This document shows, piece after piece, positions 159 through 9,328 of a DNA stretch of 9,411 bases. Source of the DNA: JBFJWU01 sp041623475 [NCBI: bacterium] (lineage in GTDB: Bacteria; J088); contig JBFJWU010000113.1 of the NCBI GenBank assembly GCA_041623475.1, positions 1 to 9,411 of the forward strand, in the 5' to 3' direction. Numbering within the stretch: the stretch's first letter is position 1; the number at the start of each line of letters is the position of its first letter. A program made the position numbers and the translations under genes. Below the pieces are notes generated by a model. The model saw nothing but the letters and a program-made list of their open reading frames with translations, searched no databases and was not told where the DNA came from.

Positions 159-1349
159 ATGAGCGAAGAATATCACCGAATTCAAAGACTCCCTCCGTAC
201 GTCTTTAACATTGTCAATGACCTGAAGTACAAGGCCCGGCGCGACGGTGAGGATATTGTTGACCTGGGAATGGGTAATCCAGACCAGGCTACTCCGACGC
301 ATATCACCGACAAACTGGTTGAAGCGGTCCATAATCCCCGCAATCACCGCTACAGTGTCAGCCGCGGTATTTTCCGGCTGCGGACCGCGATATCGGAATG
401 GTACAAGCGACGGTTTGATGTTGATATCGATCCTGATCGGGAAGCGGTGGTCACCATTGGATCCAAAGAAGGATTGAGTCACCTGATGCTGGCTGTGACC
501 GCCCCCGGGGATACGGTCATCGTCCCTGAACCGACGTATCCAATCCATACCTATAGCGTTGTTATCGCGGGTGGCGAGGTCCGGAACATACCCTTGCTGC
601 CTGCTGATGGGCTGGCCGACCGTATTCGCGAGGCGGTCGAGGACACCTGGCCCCGGCCCAAGACATTGTTGCTGAGTTTTCCCCATAATCCGACAACCTT
701 GACAGTTGACATTGAGTTTATGTCACAAATGGTTGACCTGGCACGGGAAAATGAACTTCTTCTTATCCATGACTTTGCCTATGCGGATCTCGGGTTTGAT
801 GGCTACGAGCCGCCAAGTATCTTCCAGGTTCCCGGTGCCAAGGATGTGGCTGTCGAACTGTTTACACTCAGCAAGAGTTACAACATGCCGGGGTGGCGCG
901 TCGGCTTTGTTGTTGGCAACGAGAAACCGGTACAGGCGCTGGTCAGGCTGAAAAGTTACCTGGACTACGGGATGTTCCAGCCGGTCCAGATTGCCAGTAT
1001 CATTGCCCTGGAAGGGCCACAGGACTGCGTCGACGAAATACGTGATCTGTACCGGGGCCGGCGGGATTCGTTGATCCGCGGCCTTAACCGTGCTGGCTGG
1101 CCCATCGAATCGCCCAAGGCGACGATGTTTGTCTGGGCTCCGATTCCTGAACCGTTCGCCGAAATGGGCAGCCTTGAGTTTTCAAAGATGCTGCTGCTGG
1201 AGGGGGGCGTTGCCGTCAGTCCCGGTATTGGTTTCGGCAAACATGGTGACGGTTATGTCCGAATGGCCCTGGTCGAAAACGAGCAGCGGATCAACCAGGC
1301 CGTTCGCGGAATCCGCAAGGTATTCCAGAAACATGGGATTGACCCGTGA
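159..1349 (+). CDS. alaC: Alanine aminotransferase, AlaC type (class I/II PLP)
   Basis: This 396-residue, PLP-dependent cytosolic aminotransferase most likely makes alanine from pyruvate and glutamate. It follows E. coli AlaC (about 412 residues) almost throughout. The N-terminus has [14 protein letters not shown] and the DLGMGNPD motif. SFPHNPTT carries the cofactor-contacting N177, and HDFAYADL carries D205 and Y208. The PLP lysine is K239 in [17 protein letters not shown]368 in YVRMAL should bind the substrate carboxylate. The ATG at 159 matches the family start, although the Shine-Dalgarno sequence is weak (AGAAAG near 147-152) and sits just after the leader hairpin. Its stop overlaps the GTG of hom as GTGA. 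AlaC-like aminotransferases often lie beside hom in bacteria. Other substrates are possible, but the AlaC subgroup is clear. Confidence 0.93.
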
Positions 1350-2584
1350 GTTCCCGCGTCCTTGTAGCCGGTTATGGAAATATCGGGAAGCGCACCTGCG
1401 CGATGCTGGCCGCCGGTGGCCTGGAGCTGGTCGGCGTTGTGCGCCGGACGCCTGGGCCATTGAGCGAATTTGCAGACCTGCCAGTCTATGACTCGATTGC
1501 TGACGCCCTGCCTGCATCTCGACCAGACATCTTTGTCGAGTTAATCGGTGGCGTTGACGACGCCGCATCCATGATCCTGTCTGCCATCGACGCGGGCGTT
1601 CACGTCGTAACGGCGAATAAAGCGGTCCTGGCAAGTCGGGGACGCGAAATTGCGGCGGCGGCTGCGTCGCAGGGCGTGTCCGTGCTGGCAGAGGCCTCGG
1701 TCGGCGGAGCTGTGCCGGTAATGCGTGCATTACAGGTCAGCCTGGCCGGCGATGACATCTCGAGCGTCCTGGGCGTCTGGAATGGTACATGTAATTACAT
1801 CCTGACCCGGATGGAGTCTGACGGCACGGCGTTTGACGACGTGTTGGCTGAAGCCCAGCGGCTGGGCTTTGCCGAGCCGGAACCCGGGCTGGACATCGAT
1901 GGTGATGACAGCGCCCACAAGGCCGCGGTCATTGCCCAGACGGCGTTCAGCCAGTTCCCGGATCCGGAGCAGATTGAAGTGGACGGGATTACCAACATCC
2001 GCCTGGATGATATTCGAGTGGCCCTGGGACAGGGGTACCGCCCCAAATTGATAGGCATTGTGTCTGAGCGTCCAGATGGCCTGCTGATTTACGCAGGTCC
2101 GGCGCTGTTGCCCCTGGATCATCCGGTTGCCCGCCTGGACGGTGTAACCAATGGGATCAGCATCCAGTCCGATGCCGTGGGCAGTTTGTTCCTGTCTGGC
2201 CCGGGTGCCGGACCGGGGCCAACAGCGGCCGCGGTCGCAGGGGATGTGCTTTTCCTGGCCAATGGTGGACAGCAGGCACCCCGAGAGCCAAAGGAAACAC
2301 GACTGTCCGACCTGGACCAGGTCGAATTTCCGTTTTACCTGCGTGTCGACGTTCCGGATCAGGCAGGTGTCCTGTCTGAGGTCAGCGGAATTCTGGCCCA
2401 ACATGGAATCAGTATCGAATCAATGGTTCAGCCGCCCCACGAGGGCGAATCCGTGTCGATCCACCTGACGACCCACGGTGCGGCAGTCGGGGCCGTCAAG
2501 GCAGCAGCGGGCCAGCTCCAGGAAACGGATATTGTGTTTGGGGCTGTGCTGTGGATGCCGATCCTGGATGAGTCGGATGACTGA
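1346..2584 (+). CDS. hom: Homoserine dehydrogenase, monofunctional, with ACT domain
   Basis: This enzyme reduces aspartate semialdehyde to homoserine with NAD(P)H, at the branch point to threonine and methionine. It has 412 residues, close to the usual 430, and no aspartokinase domain. The Rossmann nucleotide loop GYGNIGKR is at 9-16. TANK (K92) and WNGTCNYIL (N146) are family motifs. The catalytic Asp and Lys of DDSAHK are D188 and K192. A C-terminal ACT domain runs from about 328 to 405 ([18 protein letters not shown]...). In this family that domain usually gives feedback inhibition by threonine. The start is GTG in a GTGA overlap with the alaC stop, which indicates translational coupling. 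The next gene starts 8 bases before this stop. I see no missing key residue. Confidence 0.94.
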
Positions 2585-3764
2585 TCCTCGACGCGTCTAT
2601 TTCCTGCAACCGGATGGCTGTGCGGACGAGCCGATCGCCGAACTGGACGGGAAGACCCCGCTGGCCGCGGCCAGGACTCCCAATCTGGATCGTTTGGCCC
2701 AACAGGGACGCTGTATCAGTCTGGAAACGATCCCCAAGGGATTCCCGCCCGGCAGTGATATTGGCAACATGAGCCTGCTGGGGTTTGACCCTAATCAGTT
2801 CTTTACCGGTCGCGCACCGATCGAAGCCGCGGCCATGGGGGAAGTACTGGCGGACGATGAAGTTGCGTTCCGATGCAACCTGGTTAATATCGACCATGGC
2901 CAGGATTCGCCGGTTATGGTTGATTTCAGTGCCGGCCATATCGAAACGGACGAGGCGCATCAGTTGATTGCGGCGCTCGCTGAACGATTGCCCGGGGTCA
3001 GGTTGCTGCCCGGGGTCAGCTATCGCCACATTCTGGTTGCGCAACCCGGAAGTGGCAGTGCCGAGACAACCCCCCCGCACGATATCCAGGGACAGTCAGT
3101 AGACGCATACCTGCCTGTCGGCGATTGGTCCCGGCAATGCCTGGAATGGATGGGCATGGCACGCGAGGTCCTGGCGGAACATCCGGTGAACCAGGCCCGC
3201 ATCGACCGCGGCGATCTGCCGGCGACGGATATCTGGCTGTGGGGGCAGGGTGGCGCGACGCAGTTGGAGTCGCTCGAAACCCGGCACGGGCGGACTGGAG
3301 CCATGATCACAGCCGTTGACTTGCTGCGGGGATTGGCTGTGCTCACCGGTATGCGAAACATTGCGGTTCCCGGGGCGACCGGTTTTATTGATACGAATTA
3401 CGCAGGCAAGGCGCAGGCGGCCATTGATGCACCCGAGCCATTTGTATTCCTGCATCTCGAGGCACCTGACGAATCGTCACACATGGGCAGCCTGCCGTAC
3501 AAAATTGAGTCGCTCGAACGGTTTGACGCTGAAATCGTCGGGCCGATCCTGGCCGATGCAGAGCAGGCGGGCGCCCTGATTGTCGTTACTCCGGATCATC
3601 CGACATTGATCCGGACCCGAACCCACGCCCTGGCCAATGTTCCCTGCGTTGTCTGGGATTCCCAAAACCTAGTTGACTCGGGCGTGGCGGGGTACGATGA
3701 ATCGATCGTCGAAACCGGTGAACCGGTACAGGCATGGAGGTTACTGGACAGTGTCTGGGACTGA
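2577..3764 (+). CDS. ApgM-family phosphotransferase, proposed homoserine kinase clade
   Basis: This 395-residue protein belongs to the alkaline-phosphatase superfamily, archaeal-type cofactor-independent phosphoglycerate mutase group. The metal and catalytic residues are all visible: D13 in the PDG motif, nucleophile S60 in PPGSDIGN, D298 and H302 in DESSH, D340 and H341 in PDHPT, and H350. The motifs FRCNLV, SAGHIET, SYRHILV, TPPHDI, HPVN, GAMITAVDLLRG and GATGFIDTNYAGKA match the bacterial subgroup described in protein family databases as proposed homoserine kinase (TIGR02535). Family context for that role is adjacency to hom and absence of GHMP-type thrB. The overlap with hom here supports it. 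True phosphoglycerate mutase activity remains possible. I chose ATG 2577 because homology begins right after it. The reading frame is open back to 2478, but that part is hom sequence in another frame. ATG 2568 is an alternative. It overlaps hom by 8 bases. Confidence 0.85.
   Translation: MTDPRRVYFLQPDGCADEPIAELDGKTPLAAARTPNLDRLAQQGRCISLETIPKGFPPGSDIGNMSLLGFDPNQFFTGRAPIEAAAMGEVLADDEVAFRCNLVNIDHGQDSPVMVDFSAGHIETDEAHQLIAALAERLPGVRLLPGVSYRHILVAQPGSGSAETTPPHDIQGQSVDAYLPVGDWSRQCLEWMGMAREVLAEHPVNQARIDRGDLPATDIWLWGQGGATQLESLETRHGRTGAMITAVDLLRGLAVLTGMRNIAVPGATGFIDTNYAGKAQAAIDAPEPFVFLHLEAPDESSHMGSLPYKIESLERFDAEIVGPILADAEQAGALIVVTPDHPTLIRTRTHALANVPCVVWDSQNLVDSGVAGYDESIVETGEPVQAWRLLDSVWD
3736..3740 (+). 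promoter_or_regulatory. Ribosome binding site for the GlpX-like gene
   Basis: GGAGG is a near-consensus Shine-Dalgarno sequence ten bases before GTG 3751, inside the end of the preceding gene. It supports the GTG start over the upstream in-frame ATG at 3673. It also suggests that this gene has its own strong initiation as well as coupling. Confidence 0.55.
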
Positions 3765-4716
3765 AGGAACAATCAGCCGCGGAGTCGGAATCGACGTCGT
3801 CCGTCTGACCGAGGGTGCCGCGCGTGAAGCGGCCCGAGGTGTTGGCCTGGGGGACGAAGAAGCAATCTATCGTGGTGCCCTGGAGGGGTTCTACCAGAGC
3901 CTGCCCGAAGTGAACTTCCGAATAGCCAACATTTTTGGCGAAGCTGATCCGGAGTGGATTGACAGGGTGCAGGCGTTCAAAAATCAGGAGATGCCGGACG
4001 CTATTTCCGTCGATATTGGCATCCACGTAGTCGAATGCCTGACCGCGTGCGCCCTTGGCGGGCGCAATGCAATGAGCGCTCTTGTTGTTGCGCACGAGGG
4101 CACCATCCGGAGAATTCCGGACATTTACATGGACAAAATCGCCTGTGCGCCAGAGATTCGCGATGTTATCAATTTTGACGACAAGCCGTCGGACCTGCTG
4201 CGGGCGGCAGCCGATGCCAAGAAATCTGCGGTAGATGAGTTGCGCGTTACGATCCTTGACCGGCCGCGAAACCGCCACTGGATCGATGCAGCTCGCAGTG
4301 TTGGCAGTCGAGTGCGATTGATCGCAGATGGTGACCTGGCCGCAGCGATTGCGACGGCGATCCCGAATTCCGGGATCGATATGTTGGTGGGCAGTGGCGG
4401 CGCGATGGAAGGCTGGTTGGCTGCGGCAGCGATGCGAGGCTTGGGGGGCGGATTCCAGGGGCGATTCCTGGTCAAGGACGACGATGATATGCGTTCTTTG
4501 ATCGATGCCGGATTTGATGATCCGCGCAAGCCGATCAACCTGGACGAGGTATTGCCGGAAAAATTGATTTTCAGCGCGACCGGAATTACATCGGGTGATG
4601 TCCTTGACAGCCTGTCTTTTCGTGATGGACGTGCTAACAGCCACTCATTGATGGTGCGGACAGCCAGCGAAACAGTTCGCTGGATTCACAGCGAGCGACT
4701 GGTCGCCCGCAGCTGA
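3751..4716 (+). CDS. GlpX-like protein with altered active site
   Basis: This 321-residue homologue of class II fructose-1,6-bisphosphatase (E. coli GlpX, 336 residues) aligns without gaps at a constant +7 offset from about residue 18 to 220. I used E. coli numbering recalled from memory. Conserved are E64 (E57), E95 (E88), Y126 (Y119) in PDIYMDKI, R173 (R166), D193 and D195 (D186, D188) and E220 (E213), plus FSATGIT near the C-terminus. Replaced are K29 to E36, metal ligand D33 to Y40, metal ligand D85 to H92, G89-T90 to C96-L97 and K164 to R171. The DPIEGT signature is therefore gone. The region after residue 225 is shorter than in E. coli. Normal phosphatase activity looks unlikely, and the true function is unknown. 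GTG 3751 is preceded by GGAGG (3736-3740) at a spacing of 10 and overlaps the previous gene by 14 bases. An upstream ATG at 3673 would lie deep inside that gene. Confidence 0.82.
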   Translation: MSGTEGTISRGVGIDVVRLTEGAAREAARGVGLGDEEAIYRGALEGFYQSLPEVNFRIANIFGEADPEWIDRVQAFKNQEMPDAISVDIGIHVVECLTACALGGRNAMSALVVAHEGTIRRIPDIYMDKIACAPEIRDVINFDDKPSDLLRAAADAKKSAVDELRVTILDRPRNRHWIDAARSVGSRVRLIADGDLAAAIATAIPNSGIDMLVGSGGAMEGWLAAAAMRGLGGGFQGRFLVKDDDDMRSLIDAGFDDPRKPINLDEVLPEKLIFSATGITSGDVLDSLSFRDGRANSHSLMVRTASETVRWIHSERLVARS

Positions 4717-4721
4717 TCTGC

Positions 4722-5294
4722 ATGCCAACCGCTGAACGCGAGGCGCGGATGCAGGCCGTGGCATCCAAACGGTCCAGTTTTGTTACGGTCCTGCTGGATG
4801 GCGTCCACGATCCTCACAATATTGCCGCCGTTCTTCGCAGCGCCGATGCCTTTGGGGTACGAGATGTGCATGTTGTCGAGTCCGGCCAGCAAGTACGGAT
4901 CAGTAACAAGGTTGCCCGGGGAACACAGAATTGGGTCAATCTATATCGGTATCCGTCAGCCACTGTCGCCGGCGGACATCTGCAGCAACAGGGCTATCAG
5001 TTGCTGGTCGCTGCCGCCGGAGAGAACGGGATTGAATTGAACGAATGGATGCCAAGCCAGCGCACGGCGTTTGTCTTTGGTAACGAACACGCTGGGGTTC
5101 GTGAGGATTTGCGGAACATTGCAGACGGGACGTTTCAAATCGATATGGTTGGTATGGTAGAAAGCCTGAATATCAGCGTAGCCTGCGCGATCACATTGCG
5201 ACACGCCCGGACACGCCTGGCGGCCGAACCCCGGTTGTTGCTGGATCACGCCGACAGGCAGGCGCTGGTTGAGCACTGGGGGGCCAGTGGCTGA
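4722..5294 (+). CDS. trmH: TrmH-type tRNA guanosine-2'-O-methyltransferase (SpoU/SPOUT)
   Basis: This 190-residue SPOUT-class methyltransferase is expected to transfer a methyl group from S-adenosylmethionine to the ribose 2'-OH of G18 in the tRNA D-loop. Its length equals that of Thermus TrmH (about 194), and the key residues fall at a constant offset of two. Motif 1 is PHNIAAVLRSADAFG with N33 and catalytic R39. Motif 2 is FGNEHAGV with E122. Motif 3 is MVESLNISVA with S148 and N150, part of the trefoil knot that binds S-adenosylmethionine. The N-terminus matches TrmH rather than the longer RlmB or TrmL-type relatives, although another tRNA or rRNA target cannot be excluded. ATG 4722 lies 5 bases after the previous stop and has no clear Shine-Dalgarno sequence, so it probably relies on coupling. 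gltX begins 8 bases before its stop. Confidence 0.88.
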   Translation: MPTAEREARMQAVASKRSSFVTVLLDGVHDPHNIAAVLRSADAFGVRDVHVVESGQQVRISNKVARGTQNWVNLYRYPSATVAGGHLQQQGYQLLVAAAGENGIELNEWMPSQRTAFVFGNEHAGVREDLRNIADGTFQIDMVGMVESLNISVACAITLRHARTRLAAEPRLLLDHADRQALVEHWGASG

Positions 5295-6771
5295 CGGCCG
5301 CGTAAGATTTGCACCGAGTCCAACCGGCACCCTGCATCTGGGCAATGCCCGGACGGCGCTGTTTAATTTTCTGCTCAGTCGGGCAGAAGGGTATACGTTC
5401 ATCTATCGCAGCGAGGATACCGATCGACAGCGCAGCACGCGTGACAGCGAACAGTCGATCATCGAGGACCTGCGCTGGCTGGGACTGGAATGGGACGAAG
5501 GTCCGGACCTTGGGGGACCCTGCGAACCGTATCGGCAGAGCGAGGCTGGCGATTATTACCGGGGCGTTTTGGAACGACTGCAGGACGACGACAAGGTTTA
5601 CCCTTGTTTTTGTACCCCGGAACAACTTGATAGCGACCGGCAGCAGCAGCAGGCAAACAAGGAAAACCCGGGCTATGTCGGGCGTTGCCGGAACCTGTCG
5701 TCTGAACAACGTCAACAGCATGAGGAACGGGGAGATCCCCACGTCTGGCGACTGCGAATACCTGAATCCGGAACCGTGGATTTTGACGACATCGTCAGGG
5801 GCAAGGTCTCGTTCCCGGTTGGCAATCTTGGGGGGGACCTGATTCTGGCTCGCCGAGATTTGTCACCGACATTTCATTTTGCGGTCGTTGCCGATGATCA
5901 TCGAATGAAGATTTCCCTGGTCCTGCGAGGCGAGGACCACCTGACCAATACAGCCAAACAACTGCTGCTGTATAGGGCCCTGGAATGGGCGCCCCCGCGA
6001 TATGGCCATATGGCGATGATCCTCGGGCCCGACAAGGCGAAGTTGTCAAAAAGGCACGGCGACACGTCCGTCCAGCAATACAGGGCACGAGGAGCCGTCC
6101 CGGGCGCACTGTTGAACTATCTCAGCCTGCTGGGATGGAATCCCGGCGACGACCGCGAATTGATGGAACTTGACGAGATCCTGTCATCATTTTCACTTGA
6201 TCGTCTGGTCAAGAGCGCGGCCGTGTTTGACGAAAAAAAGCTGGCCTGGATGAACGGCCAGTATTTGCGACAAATGGTCCCCGGTAATTTTGTGCAGTTC
6301 AGCCGCCAGTGGCTCGAGAGTTACCATCCGGAATTGATCGAACGGATCGGTGACCGCTGGATCGAAGCGGTCCTGCCATTGTTCCAGGAAAAGGTAGAGT
6401 TCCTTGACGAATTGCCGGGCCACCTTGAAATATTTGTTGACGGCCCGGTGGCGTACGGCAAATCAGAAGAAAAGATTGCCAGGATGGAATCGGCAAAACC
6501 GATTGCCCGGGTCCTGATTGATGCGTGTGACGACGTGCCATCGGGGCTGAGTGCCCGACTGGACTGGTTTGAACGGACCAAAGAGCGCGCGGCGTCCGAA
6601 TCGGGGGCGACCGGGAAACAATTATTCCAGCCGCTGCGCCTGGGAGCGAGTGGCCGGGCCGGGGGGCCCGATCTTGCGCAACTGTATGCGTTGATGGCTC
6701 CGGAGTTGATCAAGGCCCGGTCCCGGTATTTGCTGGAGTACGCAGGCGGGGAAGATGAGGCTACAGAATGA
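5287..6771 (+). CDS. gltX: Glutamyl-tRNA synthetase
   Basis: This class I aminoacyl-tRNA synthetase charges tRNA-Glu with glutamate. Counting from GTG 5287 it has 494 residues, against 471 in E. coli. RFAPSPTG is followed by the HIGH-type motif HLGN (17-20), and the KMSKS-type motif is KLSKR (252-256). The zinc-binding insert has C107, C109 and C134 at the same spacing as E. coli C98, C100 and C125, but the fourth ligand His (E. coli H127) is N136 here. The C-terminal helical anticodon-binding half is present. I cannot tell whether the enzyme also charges tRNA-Gln. The start is uncertain. GTG 5287 gives the usual short N-terminus and has a G-rich stretch (5278-5283) just upstream. TTG 5269 would add six residues. 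It overlaps trmH by 8 bases and cysS by 4. Confidence 0.95.
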   Translation: MADGRVRFAPSPTGTLHLGNARTALFNFLLSRAEGYTFIYRSEDTDRQRSTRDSEQSIIEDLRWLGLEWDEGPDLGGPCEPYRQSEAGDYYRGVLERLQDDDKVYPCFCTPEQLDSDRQQQQANKENPGYVGRCRNLSSEQRQQHEERGDPHVWRLRIPESGTVDFDDIVRGKVSFPVGNLGGDLILARRDLSPTFHFAVVADDHRMKISLVLRGEDHLTNTAKQLLLYRALEWAPPRYGHMAMILGPDKAKLSKRHGDTSVQQYRARGAVPGALLNYLSLLGWNPGDDRELMELDEILSSFSLDRLVKSAAVFDEKKLAWMNGQYLRQMVPGNFVQFSRQWLESYHPELIERIGDRWIEAVLPLFQEKVEFLDELPGHLEIFVDGPVAYGKSEEKIARMESAKPIARVLIDACDDVPSGLSARLDWFERTKERAASESGATGKQLFQPLRLGASGRAGGPDLAQLYALMAPELIKARSRYLLEYAGGEDEATE

Positions 6772-8273
6772 CGATTCAACTGTTTGATACCGCATCCCGG
6801 GAGGCACGGGATTTCGTGCCAGCGGACCAGGCCAACGTCCTCATGTACGTCTGCGGCCCGACGGTTTACGATGACCCTCATCTGGGCCACGCACGGGCAT
6901 CGGTGGTGTTTGACGTACTGTACCGGGTTCTCCGTCGGCAGTACGGGATCGACGGTGTGACATACCTGCGGAACTACACGGATGTCGATGACAAGATCAT
7001 TGTCCGGGCAAATGAACGGCAGGTTGCCATCGACGACATAACAGAGCGCTATATCGACTCTTACGAGGTCGCAATGGCGGCCCTGGGTTGCCTGGATCCG
7101 GACCTGAAACCGAGAGTGACCCAGGTGATGGACGAGATCATCGCCTACGTGCAGAAGCTTGTCGACAGCGAGATCGCCTACGCGGTTGACGGGGATGTGT
7201 TCTTTTCAATCGATGCATTTCCGGCGTATGGGAAACTTTCGCAACGGGGGGCCGATGAACTGCAAACCGTCCACCGGGTCGAGGTCGATCCACGCAAGCG
7301 GAATCCCCTGGATTTTGCCGTCTGGAAGTCTGCCAAACCCGACGAACCCAGTTGGGACAGCCCGTGGGGTCCAGGACGACCGGGGTGGCACATCGAATGT
7401 TCTGTTATGGCGACCCACTTCGGTCGCAATACCCTGGATATTCACGGGGGCGGGCAGGACCTGATCTTCCCGCATCACGAAAACGAAATTGCACAGTGTG
7501 AGTCGCTGACCGGTGTTCCCTTTGCCAACTATTGGGTCCACAATGGTTTCGTTCGGATTGATGCCGAAAAAATGTCCAAAAGCCTGGGCAATTTCACAAC
7601 CGTCTCTGAACTGCTGGACGTCTGGCCTGCTGAATGTCTGCGCTACTTCCTGCTGTCGGCCCAATACCGAACGCCCCTGGATTTCACGTTGCAGGCCGTT
7701 GCCGAAGCGGTAAAGGCACTGGCACGAATCTACGACGGCTTTGCCTGGCTGGACATCAAGGAATCATCGGAAATTGAGCCGACAGCCAAACAGCGGGGCA
7801 GACTGGACAGGCTTGCGGTCAACGTTCGGGCTGCTCGCAAAGGGCTATGGACAGAGCTGCAAAACGACATGAACACACCGGCCGCGCTGTCAAACGTGTT
7901 TGACGCGGTTCGCGAAATGAACCAGGTCATCAGGGGATTTCCTGAAGGCGTCCCATCAGCGGCCAGTGATGCCAGGGCTGCTGCTGCTGAATTGCTCAGC
8001 GATTTGCGGGAATTGCTGGGAATCTGCCAGGGAACCGCAGCCGAGTTCAACGCTACCTGGAACAGGGCTGCGGCGGCCATCCTGGGCATCGATACTGCGG
8101 ACATTGATGCCCGCGTACAGTCTCGCGAAGATGCCAGGCTGGCCAAAGACTGGGATGAAGCAGATCGAATCCGCGACGAGTTGGCGGGGCAGGGGGTGGT
8201 TCTCGAAGATGCGGGCACGGACTCGAGTTGGCGTATTGATCCGTTGGCTGCGGCCGACACCCTGCGAGGTTAG
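6768..8273 (+). CDS. cysS: Cysteinyl-tRNA synthetase
   Basis: This 501-residue class I synthetase charges tRNA-Cys with cysteine. E. coli CysS has 461 residues. MYVCGPTVYD leads to the HIGH motif HLGH (38-41), and KMSKS is at 268-272 followed by LGN. The zinc ligands that select cysteine are all present: C29, C211 in GWHIECSVM, and H236 and E240 in FPHHENE. NYTDVDDKII and DIHGGGQDL are further family signatures. A DALR-like helical region and a small C-terminal anticodon-binding segment (about 440-501, REDARLAKDWDEADRIRDEL) complete it. ATGA at 6768 overlaps the gltX stop, and TGAGG (6756-6760) lies 7 bases upstream as a Shine-Dalgarno sequence. It stops with TAG at 8271-8273. Confidence 0.96.
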   Translation: MTIQLFDTASREARDFVPADQANVLMYVCGPTVYDDPHLGHARASVVFDVLYRVLRRQYGIDGVTYLRNYTDVDDKIIVRANERQVAIDDITERYIDSYEVAMAALGCLDPDLKPRVTQVMDEIIAYVQKLVDSEIAYAVDGDVFFSIDAFPAYGKLSQRGADELQTVHRVEVDPRKRNPLDFAVWKSAKPDEPSWDSPWGPGRPGWHIECSVMATHFGRNTLDIHGGGQDLIFPHHENEIAQCESLTGVPFANYWVHNGFVRIDAEKMSKSLGNFTTVSELLDVWPAECLRYFLLSAQYRTPLDFTLQAVAEAVKALARIYDGFAWLDIKESSEIEPTAKQRGRLDRLAVNVRAARKGLWTELQNDMNTPAALSNVFDAVREMNQVIRGFPEGVPSAASDARAAAAELLSDLRELLGICQGTAAEFNATWNRAAAAILGIDTADIDARVQSREDARLAKDWDEADRIRDELAGQGVVLEDAGTDSSWRIDPLAAADTLRG

Positions 8274-8302
8274 CACTCCTGGACAATGCGATCGGCCAGC
8301 GT

Positions 8303-9328
8303 GTGCAGCGGGCTGTGCAGTTGATCCTGCCGTCGTGGACCGGTGCACGAATCGAACCGCTTGCTGGCGATGGTTCCAACCGGTCGTACGTACGAATTCT
8401 CCACGATGATGGCCATCGCGTCGCGATGGTGCTGGCTGCTGACGATTTACACGGTGGCAAAGCGGAAGAGGTCGGTAGCGGCGTTACCGATGACCAATTG
8501 CCGTTCGTGGAAATCACAGAACTGCTAACGACTGCCGGGTTGCCGGTGCCGATCATAGACGGTTGGTCCAGCGACGAGGGTGTCCTGATTATGGAAGACC
8601 TTGGTAGTTTACATCTTGCTGATTGTTTTACAGACGGGATCTCGCCCCTTGATCACTATCGAGCGGCCCTTGACCAGTTGGTGGTGTTTCAGTCGTCCCG
8701 GTTTCCCCCGGAATCCGTGATTGCCCGCCGTGGTTACGGATTTGACCTGTGGCTCTGGGAATTTGAGCATTTTGTCGAATACGGAATCGAAGCCCGGCAG
8801 GGTATTGAGCCCTCGTCCTATCCGCGAACCGAATTGATGTCATCATTCGCCGATCTGTCGCGAATGATCGCAGAGTGCCCCAGGGTGCCGGTTCACCGTG
8901 ATTTCCATAGTCGCAATCTGCTGATCAAAAAGGGGCAGGTGCGTTGGATTGACTATCAGGACGCATTGATGGGGCCGGCCTTGTACGATGTCGCCAGCCT
9001 TTTGTTTGACGCATATGTCAACATTGACGAGGTTCACTGCCGAGAGCTTTTTTCAGGCTACCTGTCACAGGCCAGGGAACGATCTGTCCCCGTGTCCGAC
9101 CATTCGGAGGAATTGCTGAATGTCATTGCGGTCCAGCGTATGCTCAAGGCTGCCGGACGATTCGTTTATTTCCGTGATGTGAAAGGGCTGTCGGGATATG
9201 TCGAACACATCCCGGGCCTGATGAAACGCGTCGCTGGAATTGTCACCAATCTGGACGGGCAGGTTCCCGCACTGGATCGTGCATTTGCACTGATGTTACC
9301 GTTGGTTCCTGAGTGGGCGGGCGGTTGA
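8303..9328 (+). CDS. Aminoglycoside-phosphotransferase-fold kinase, AmgK-like
   Basis: This 341-residue kinase of the APH fold resembles AmgK, the anomeric kinase that phosphorylates N-acetylmuramate and N-acetylglucosamine in the peptidoglycan recycling route of Pseudomonas. The ATP-binding N-lobe has GDGSNRSYVR (22-31), and MEDLG marks the hinge. The catalytic loop is VHRDFHSRN with H198, D200 and N205. The metal-binding motif is IDYQD with D217. AmgK-like features include GPALYDVASLLFDAYV and QRMLKAAGRFVYFRDV. No signal peptide or membrane segment is visible. The partner uridylyltransferase gene murU, usual beside amgK, does not follow, so the substrate is uncertain and I give no symbol. 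GTG 8303 is the first usual in-frame start after the cysS stop, 29 bases downstream, with no clear Shine-Dalgarno sequence. The frame stays open upstream, so a rarer start such as CTG 8279 is possible. Confidence 0.72.
   Translation: MQRAVQLILPSWTGARIEPLAGDGSNRSYVRILHDDGHRVAMVLAADDLHGGKAEEVGSGVTDDQLPFVEITELLTTAGLPVPIIDGWSSDEGVLIMEDLGSLHLADCFTDGISPLDHYRAALDQLVVFQSSRFPPESVIARRGYGFDLWLWEFEHFVEYGIEARQGIEPSSYPRTELMSSFADLSRMIAECPRVPVHRDFHSRNLLIKKGQVRWIDYQDALMGPALYDVASLLFDAYVNIDEVHCRELFSGYLSQARERSVPVSDHSEELLNVIAVQRMLKAAGRFVYFRDVKGLSGYVEHIPGLMKRVAGIVTNLDGQVPALDRAFALMLPLVPEWAGG

Follow-up and report, generated by a model that had tools for sequence, protein, structure and literature searches.

The window, that is, the whole stretch of 9,411 nucleotides of DNA here analysed, carries the genes and features listed below. 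Residue numbers such as D33 and T90 are those of E. coli GlpX, and residue placements derive from the alignment.

159 to 1349, plus strand: alaC-like aminotransferase gene, first gene of the conserved order
1346 to 2584, plus strand: hom, encoding homoserine dehydrogenase with an ACT domain
2577 to 3764, plus strand: ApgM-family gene, proposed homoserine kinase ThrB2 (TIGR02535 and PRK04200 scores)
3736 to 3740, plus strand: GGAGG, ribosome-binding-site-like, 10 nt ahead of the GTG (direct reading)
3751 to 4716, plus strand: GlpX-like gene (class II fructose-1,6-bisphosphatase, FBPase, fold) with a degenerate catalytic site; 321 aa, GTG start
3868 to 3870, plus strand: codon TAT, Tyr40 in place of the metal ligand D33
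4024 to 4041, plus strand: HVVECL (residues 92-97) in place of DPIEGT (85-90)
4261 to 4269, plus strand: R171-P-R173, retained 6-phosphate pocket (K164/R166)
4327 to 4335, plus strand: D193-G-D195, retained DGD furanose-binding motif (role of DGD according to passages of PMC10289334)
4408 to 4410, plus strand: E220, the retained metal ligand E213 (Gln in the other degenerate clade)
4722 to 9328, plus strand (same strand): trmH-like, gltX, cysS and APH-family (AmgK-like) kinase genes, downstream of glpX

The glpX-like reading frame runs unbroken from its GTG at 3751 to the stop at 4714-4716, overlaps the upstream apgM-like gene by 14 bp, and fits the codon usage of its neighbours (r of 0.82 in frame vs 0.49 one frame off). 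Its product matches the Pfam FBPase_glpX model with 265.7 bits (E of 5e-79), so that the family assignment is not due to chance. An AlphaFold2 model built with seven sequences is of moderate quality (pLDDT 74.6, pTM 0.78), with low confidence at residues 97-104, 281-299 and the C-terminus, the first of these segments falling below 50 and adjoining the lost nucleophile. In a Foldseek comparison, every one of its 24 PDB matches at E ≤ 0.001 is a class II FBPase (TMq 0.74-0.83); PDB 1ni9, titled as a glycerol metabolism protein, is GlpX by sequence match. By sequence and by fold, the window protein is a member of the class II FBPase family. On the TIGR00330 equivalog model it scores 181.4 bits, under the cut-off of 259.3, while among three degenerate relatives (see below) L060 and L199 pass (335.5 and 310.2 bits) and L202 fails (229.3 bits).

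Active-site residues were then placed using as references E. coli GlpX from the MG1655 record and the M. tuberculosis sequences in the PDB. Since the alignment to both is ungapped from before D33 to past T90, the placements in this stretch are firm. The window protein shows replacement of K29 (by E36), D33 (Y40), D85 (H92), P86 (V93), G89 (C96), T90 (L97) and H167 (N174), and retention of E57 (E64), E88 (E95), Y119 (Y126), R166 (R173), D186 (D193), D188 (D195) and E213 (E220); the equivalent of K164 is Arg (R171), as it also is in M. tuberculosis. Within HVVECL, the metal ligand D85 is therefore His, G89 is Cys and the nucleophile T90 is Leu, E88 being kept. The class II active site is listed in passages of PMC5892879 as D33, E57, D85, E88, T90, Y119, K164, R166, D188 and E213. 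Of its four metal ligands (D33, E57, D85 and E213, here Y40, E64, H92 and E220) two are retained; two of five metal and nucleophile positions (T90 included) persist, and so do 6/6 substrate positions (E88, Y119, K/R164, R166, D186 and D188), numbers too small for a formal test. According to passages of PMC10289334, the sugar phosphate is bound by the Arg pocket together with the DGD motif. The nucleophilic Thr of DPxEGT is absent from the window protein, and its replacement by Ala is reported to inactivate both the M. tuberculosis enzyme (T84A, the T90 equivalent; passages of PMC5892879) and another class II enzyme (T89A; passages of PMC10289334). Leu at this essential position, together with the loss of D33 and D85, is here counted for loss of fructose-1,6-bisphosphate hydrolysis, even though His at 85 could, along with E88 and E213, still hold one metal ion.

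These placements bear out, against the actual E. coli MG1655 and PDB sequences, the losses that an earlier note on this DNA had described (D33 to Tyr, D85 to His, Gly-Thr to Cys-Leu), as well as its claims of a retained sugar-phosphate pocket (Y126, R173, D193 and D195) with E220, and of an intact frame behind a ribosome-binding site. K29, which that note also counted as a lost catalytic residue, has to be read differently. It is indeed replaced by Glu, but it does not figure in the catalytic list in the passages of PMC5892879 dealing with the active site, and Lys is missing from 131/131 operon-linked relatives (defined below), 34 of which retain the full catalytic set; Arg stands there in L305, a linked row added later. 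Among the 18 unlinked-looking rows readable at this position, 15 have Lys, 1 Arg and 2 Glu, and Glu is the commonest residue at 29 in linked rows keeping D33. Since Lys29 is absent from linked rows that are catalytically intact, its loss marks a subfamily and is no evidence of dead catalysis. With Glu36, the window protein follows the operon-linked subfamily.

Relatives of the window GlpX were found in 134/148 genomes of the class of G002, with a best identity of 43%, over a part of the protein. The class searched is Binatia-like and also holds a Candidatus Binataceae genome (L043, G008). From the matching genomes the best places listed were taken, short ones and some others being left out. 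The alignment comprises, besides the window and E. coli, 155 GlpX rows sorted by residue 213 and by neighbours, drawn from hits that cover at least 200 query residues and without the E. coli locus; each row stands for a distinct sequence rather than for a genome, with one pair being >99.5% identical. Rows were called linked when a hom, thrC or apgM match lay upstream on the same strand within the stretch read, most unlinked rows having only 1.5 kb of flank. On this basis, 97 rows are linked and carry Gln213, 4 carry Gln213 without visible context, 34 are linked and intact, and 20 are intact without visible link.

Thus, E213 is changed to Gln in 97 of the 131 linked rows, and whenever E213 is lost the replacement is always Gln. 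T90 is lost in 96 of these 97 rows, and position 90 varies freely (A, S, P, G, V, D). The same 97 rows retain E88, G89, R164, R166 and D188 throughout and Y119 in 91 cases; D33 is present in 83, E57 in 80 and D85 in 90, P86 being lost in 81 and D186 in 56. The most degenerate linked copies (L275, L283, L285, L286 and L202) combine D85 to Asn, a changed E57, T90 to Gly and E213 to Gln. A second class of this phylum, that of G542, has GlpX in 25/26 genomes; 16 loci were read there, three of them (L296, L297 and L303) in genomes already represented among the rows. There, apgM adjoins glpX in all 16 loci; 15 copies are intact and one (L299) is degenerate, with T90P and P86A and a retained E213. 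L084, from the same class as L299, has D85A, T90A and E213Q.

In the window, glpX follows hom on the plus strand within an alaC-hom-(thrC)-(apgM) order, and it belongs to the GlpX subfamily bound to the homoserine/threonine operon. Of the 59 degenerate rows for which 3.9 kb or more was read upstream, 55 have a detected hom, 39 thrC and 31 apgM, and hom was detected in 12/12 intact linked rows with the same flank; neighbours were detected by tblastn with the window proteins and one thrC, a search whose sensitivity limits what an absence means. Being the most constant neighbour, hom leads to homoserine dehydrogenase being named as the likely partner. An AlaC scan fetched 80 loci, 6 of them with the alaC-hom-(thrC)-apgM-glpX order, and the Binatia-like class searched above is that of one of these six. 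The ApgM-family gene of the window scores 444.2 bits on TIGR02535, vs a cut-off of 446.3, and 455.2 on PRK04200, vs 426, and the role of ThrB2 in threonine synthesis is itself unsettled in passages of PMC7311316 and PMC9026213.

Some further observations concern these neighbours. At one locus (L208/L317, G060:C8), thrC and an intact degenerate glpX flank what is left of an apgM: 36 bits on TIGR02535, 4 stops and only short weak tblastn pieces, ThrB2 having decayed while glpX was retained. An enoyl-CoA hydratase gene follows the degenerate glpX in L190 and L199, and L199 also has methylmalonyl-CoA mutase and B12-binding genes downstream (Pfam). Strong and near full-length ApgM relatives (44-51% identity) occur in 39/299 genomes of the phylum of G005; these were set aside as irrelevant to the operon, hom or glpX adjoining in none of the 20 stretches read (L170-L189), some of them short.

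As a control, 19 second GlpX copies were chosen from the lower-scoring matches in genomes with two or more; in all 19 genomes so chosen the first copy is linked and carries Gln213. D33, E57, D85, E88, T90 and E213 are intact in 19/19 second copies, and 18 lack hom, thrC and apgM in the fetched stretch, L323 having hom nearby. Two more (L288 and L289) are intact where readable. Altogether 22 second copies were read, 21 being unlinked or intact (where readable) and one a duplicate of a degenerate operon: G016 holds the degenerate hom-thrC-apgM-glpX operon twice (L256 and L257), with identical GlpX and no other GlpX match listed. For 35 degenerate near pairs dN/dS ranged from 0.006 to 0.253, and for intact linked pairs from 0.022 to 0.125 in 15, with one further pair giving no value and several dS being saturated. 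The degenerate GlpX relatives are maintained proteins under purifying selection.

A tree of 35 rows was built with active-site columns left out and with rows shorter than 240 aa and near-copies (72% identity within category) dropped. It groups L084 with intact linked rows, and a single clade of all Gln213 rows is rejected both with the window outside (p-AU 0.009) and inside (p-AU 0.031). Considering this rejection along with the grouping of L084 and the residues of L299, catalytic loss, as judged from the residues, very probably arose more than once among linked copies. In the best tree the window GlpX falls inside the Gln213 clade (support 100/99) on a very long branch (2.38); trees that place it outside that main degenerate group survive the AU test (p-AU 0.133). 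The window lacks Gln at 213, Glu220 standing there; this Glu would be a reversal if the window belongs inside the Gln213 clade, and the window would represent a further independent loss of catalysis if it belongs outside. Of 72 columns with 95% identity or more among linked rows, the window keeps 52 and departs from 20.

Close GlpX relatives of the window were confirmed neither in a scan of genome contigs nor in one of viral contigs, and GlpX matches in plasmid and phage records were below 40% identity in the listed 10 of 50 and 4 of 4. Whole-genome searches found GlpX in 10/369 genomes of the class of G005, 48/247 of the phylum of G010 and 0/8 of the phylum of G541, with no relative above 43% identity among the matches listed. 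The window CysS has matches in 33/35 genomes, at up to 48% identity over the full length and up to 55% in partial matches, identities pointing to a poorly sampled lineage for the window; in an AlaC tree the window likewise sits on a long branch, outside every starred set.

The reading here preferred, to which an even chance of being right is given, is that the window protein binds a sugar phosphate without hydrolysing it and serves the homoserine branch as a partner or regulator. Judging by the residues lost, this GlpX-fold protein would no longer hydrolyse fructose-1,6-bisphosphate; the pocket for the 6-phosphate and the sugar ring being retained, the predicted binding of a phosphosugar would be the selected function. 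The protein may then sense phosphosugars as the partner or regulatory subunit of another enzyme, homoserine dehydrogenase being the likeliest, a coupling that would tie flux through the homoserine branch to the state of central carbon metabolism. Several findings weigh against this reading: Gln213 relatives mostly keep D33, E57 and D85, needless for a pure binding protein, and intact linked copies (34/131) share the operon, which by itself therefore does not demand catalytic loss. G016, too, shows no listed GlpX besides its two degenerate copies. The window is, moreover, a single sequence on its very long branch, retains E57, E88 and E213 with His at 85, and has a structure model of moderate quality. 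A more specific version, in which a GlpX-derived protein disarmed more than once binds fructose phosphate and switches homoserine dehydrogenase, is put forward only tentatively, and that tentative standing is shared with its bolder form, in which homoserine would be phosphorylated using a sugar phosphate.

A protein of changed chemistry, in which degenerate linked GlpX acts on a pathway metabolite (for instance by transferring phosphate to homoserine or by dephosphorylating another phosphoester), is considered unlikely. The persistence of most metal ligands in Gln213 rows, the invariable change of 213 to Gln and the decayed apgM with stops beside an intact degenerate glpX in G060 speak for it. 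So does the kinase content of 30 genomes of the class, chosen by hand, mainly for operons without apgM, their fractions thus not being a survey: ThrB exceeds its cut-off in 0/30 (with 25 weak matches) and ThrB2 in 7/30, while thrC is present in 28/30. Against this, ThrB_alt exceeds its cut-off in 0/30, yet proteins matching it below the cut-off occur in 29/30, the cut-off being reached in only 1/14 control genomes, and the best NCBIfam match of 10/10 proteins scanned is a homoserine kinase model, also below cut-off. ThrB_alt-like proteins thus probably fill the homoserine kinase gap, as far as such matches tell, and the idea of linked GlpX as a substitute for a missing homoserine kinase is weakened to a rival rather than a lead. 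The free variation of position 90 is also unlike that of a new catalytic residue. With respect to the window itself, H92 and C96 occur in no aligned relative. Seven proteins (L309-L312 and L314-L316), from genomes without ThrB over cut-off, are homoserine-kinase-like APH proteins scoring 94-168 bits vs 271 for PRK05231, possibly a divergent ThrB_alt group.

That the gene has no function left, through decay or through sequencing error in its one contig, is rather improbable. This reading would suit the long branch of a sequence found only once and the change in 20 of 72 near-invariant columns, and the Asp to Tyr, Asp to His and Gly to Cys replacements would each take, from the codons, one base change; but the frame is intact, overlaps the upstream gene and has normal codon usage, all six substrate-binding positions are kept, and purifying selection acts on relatives that have lost a comparable set of residues. 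Least probable, and indeed very unlikely, is an odd but functional FBPase with metal sites rebuilt from E36, H92, E64, E95 and E220. E57, E88 and E213 are there, His at 85 can ligate a metal, and by the alignment E36 would lie four residues before the D33 position; nonetheless, the nucleophile is Leu where Ala inactivates two class II enzymes (passages of PMC5892879 and PMC10289334), Glu at 29 is commonest also where D33 is retained and so is no replacement ligand, and the TIGR00330 score is under the cut-off, though degenerate relatives can pass it.

With the non-hydrolytic partner kept as the preferred reading, the pseudoenzyme half of the interpretation in the earlier note appears the better one. 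It is supported and widened, since catalytic loss, as read from the alignments, recurs in linked copies of many genomes while phosphosugar residues persist; the sensing of a sugar phosphate, as the note proposed, would fit. The other half, new chemistry using H92 and C96, loses its footing, as the three alignments checked contain no further GlpX row with Tyr33, His85 or Cys89, and no HxxEC clade was found among the relatives aligned. The expectation that such genes always stand beside hom and an ApgM-like gene is largely sustained for hom (55/59 degenerate rows) but not for apgM (only 31/59).

One odd gene thereby grows into a recurrent operon-bound GlpX subfamily that is probably non-hydrolytic. 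A literature search, made on listings, returned no paper joining GlpX with pseudoenzymes and no description of operon-linked degenerate GlpX. Degenerate relatives that pass TIGR00330 would be annotated as FBPase, so that gluconeogenesis would probably be read wrongly into genomes. That a conserved FBPase bound to this operon was disarmed repeatedly next to homoserine dehydrogenase points to a connection, so far undescribed, of central carbon metabolism with the aspartate family. This proposed link adjoins the ThrB2 step, itself unresolved in print (passages of PMC7311316 and PMC9026213), and, if true, it would mean an undescribed control of the homoserine branch by carbon state through a widespread GlpX-derived protein.

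In comparison with known systems, the window protein shares with class II GlpX (PF03320, TIGR00330; 3d1r, 6ayu, 7txb and 3rpl) its fold, length, phosphosugar pocket, E57 and E213, and differs from it in the replacement of D33, D85, T90 and G89 and in a score under the TIGR00330 cut-off. E. coli glpX follows glpF-glpK (MG1655), whereas the window glpX sits behind hom and apgM. ThrB2 (TIGR02535) is a different protein from GlpX, being its operon neighbour in the window and in 31/59 degenerate rows. Intact linked GlpX (L013, L035, L036, L051 and L065) shows the alaC-hom-(thrC)-apgM-glpX order of the window and has Lys29 replaced, but, unlike the window, it keeps DPLEGT, D33 and E213 intact and is, from these residues, probably still catalytic. 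Finally, Gln213 GlpX of the Binatia-like class (L060, L190 and L199) shares the operon of the window, the loss of Lys29 and T90 and the retention of most sugar-phosphate residues; it loses E213 and often P86 or D186 and mostly keeps D33 and D85, while in the window this pattern is reversed.
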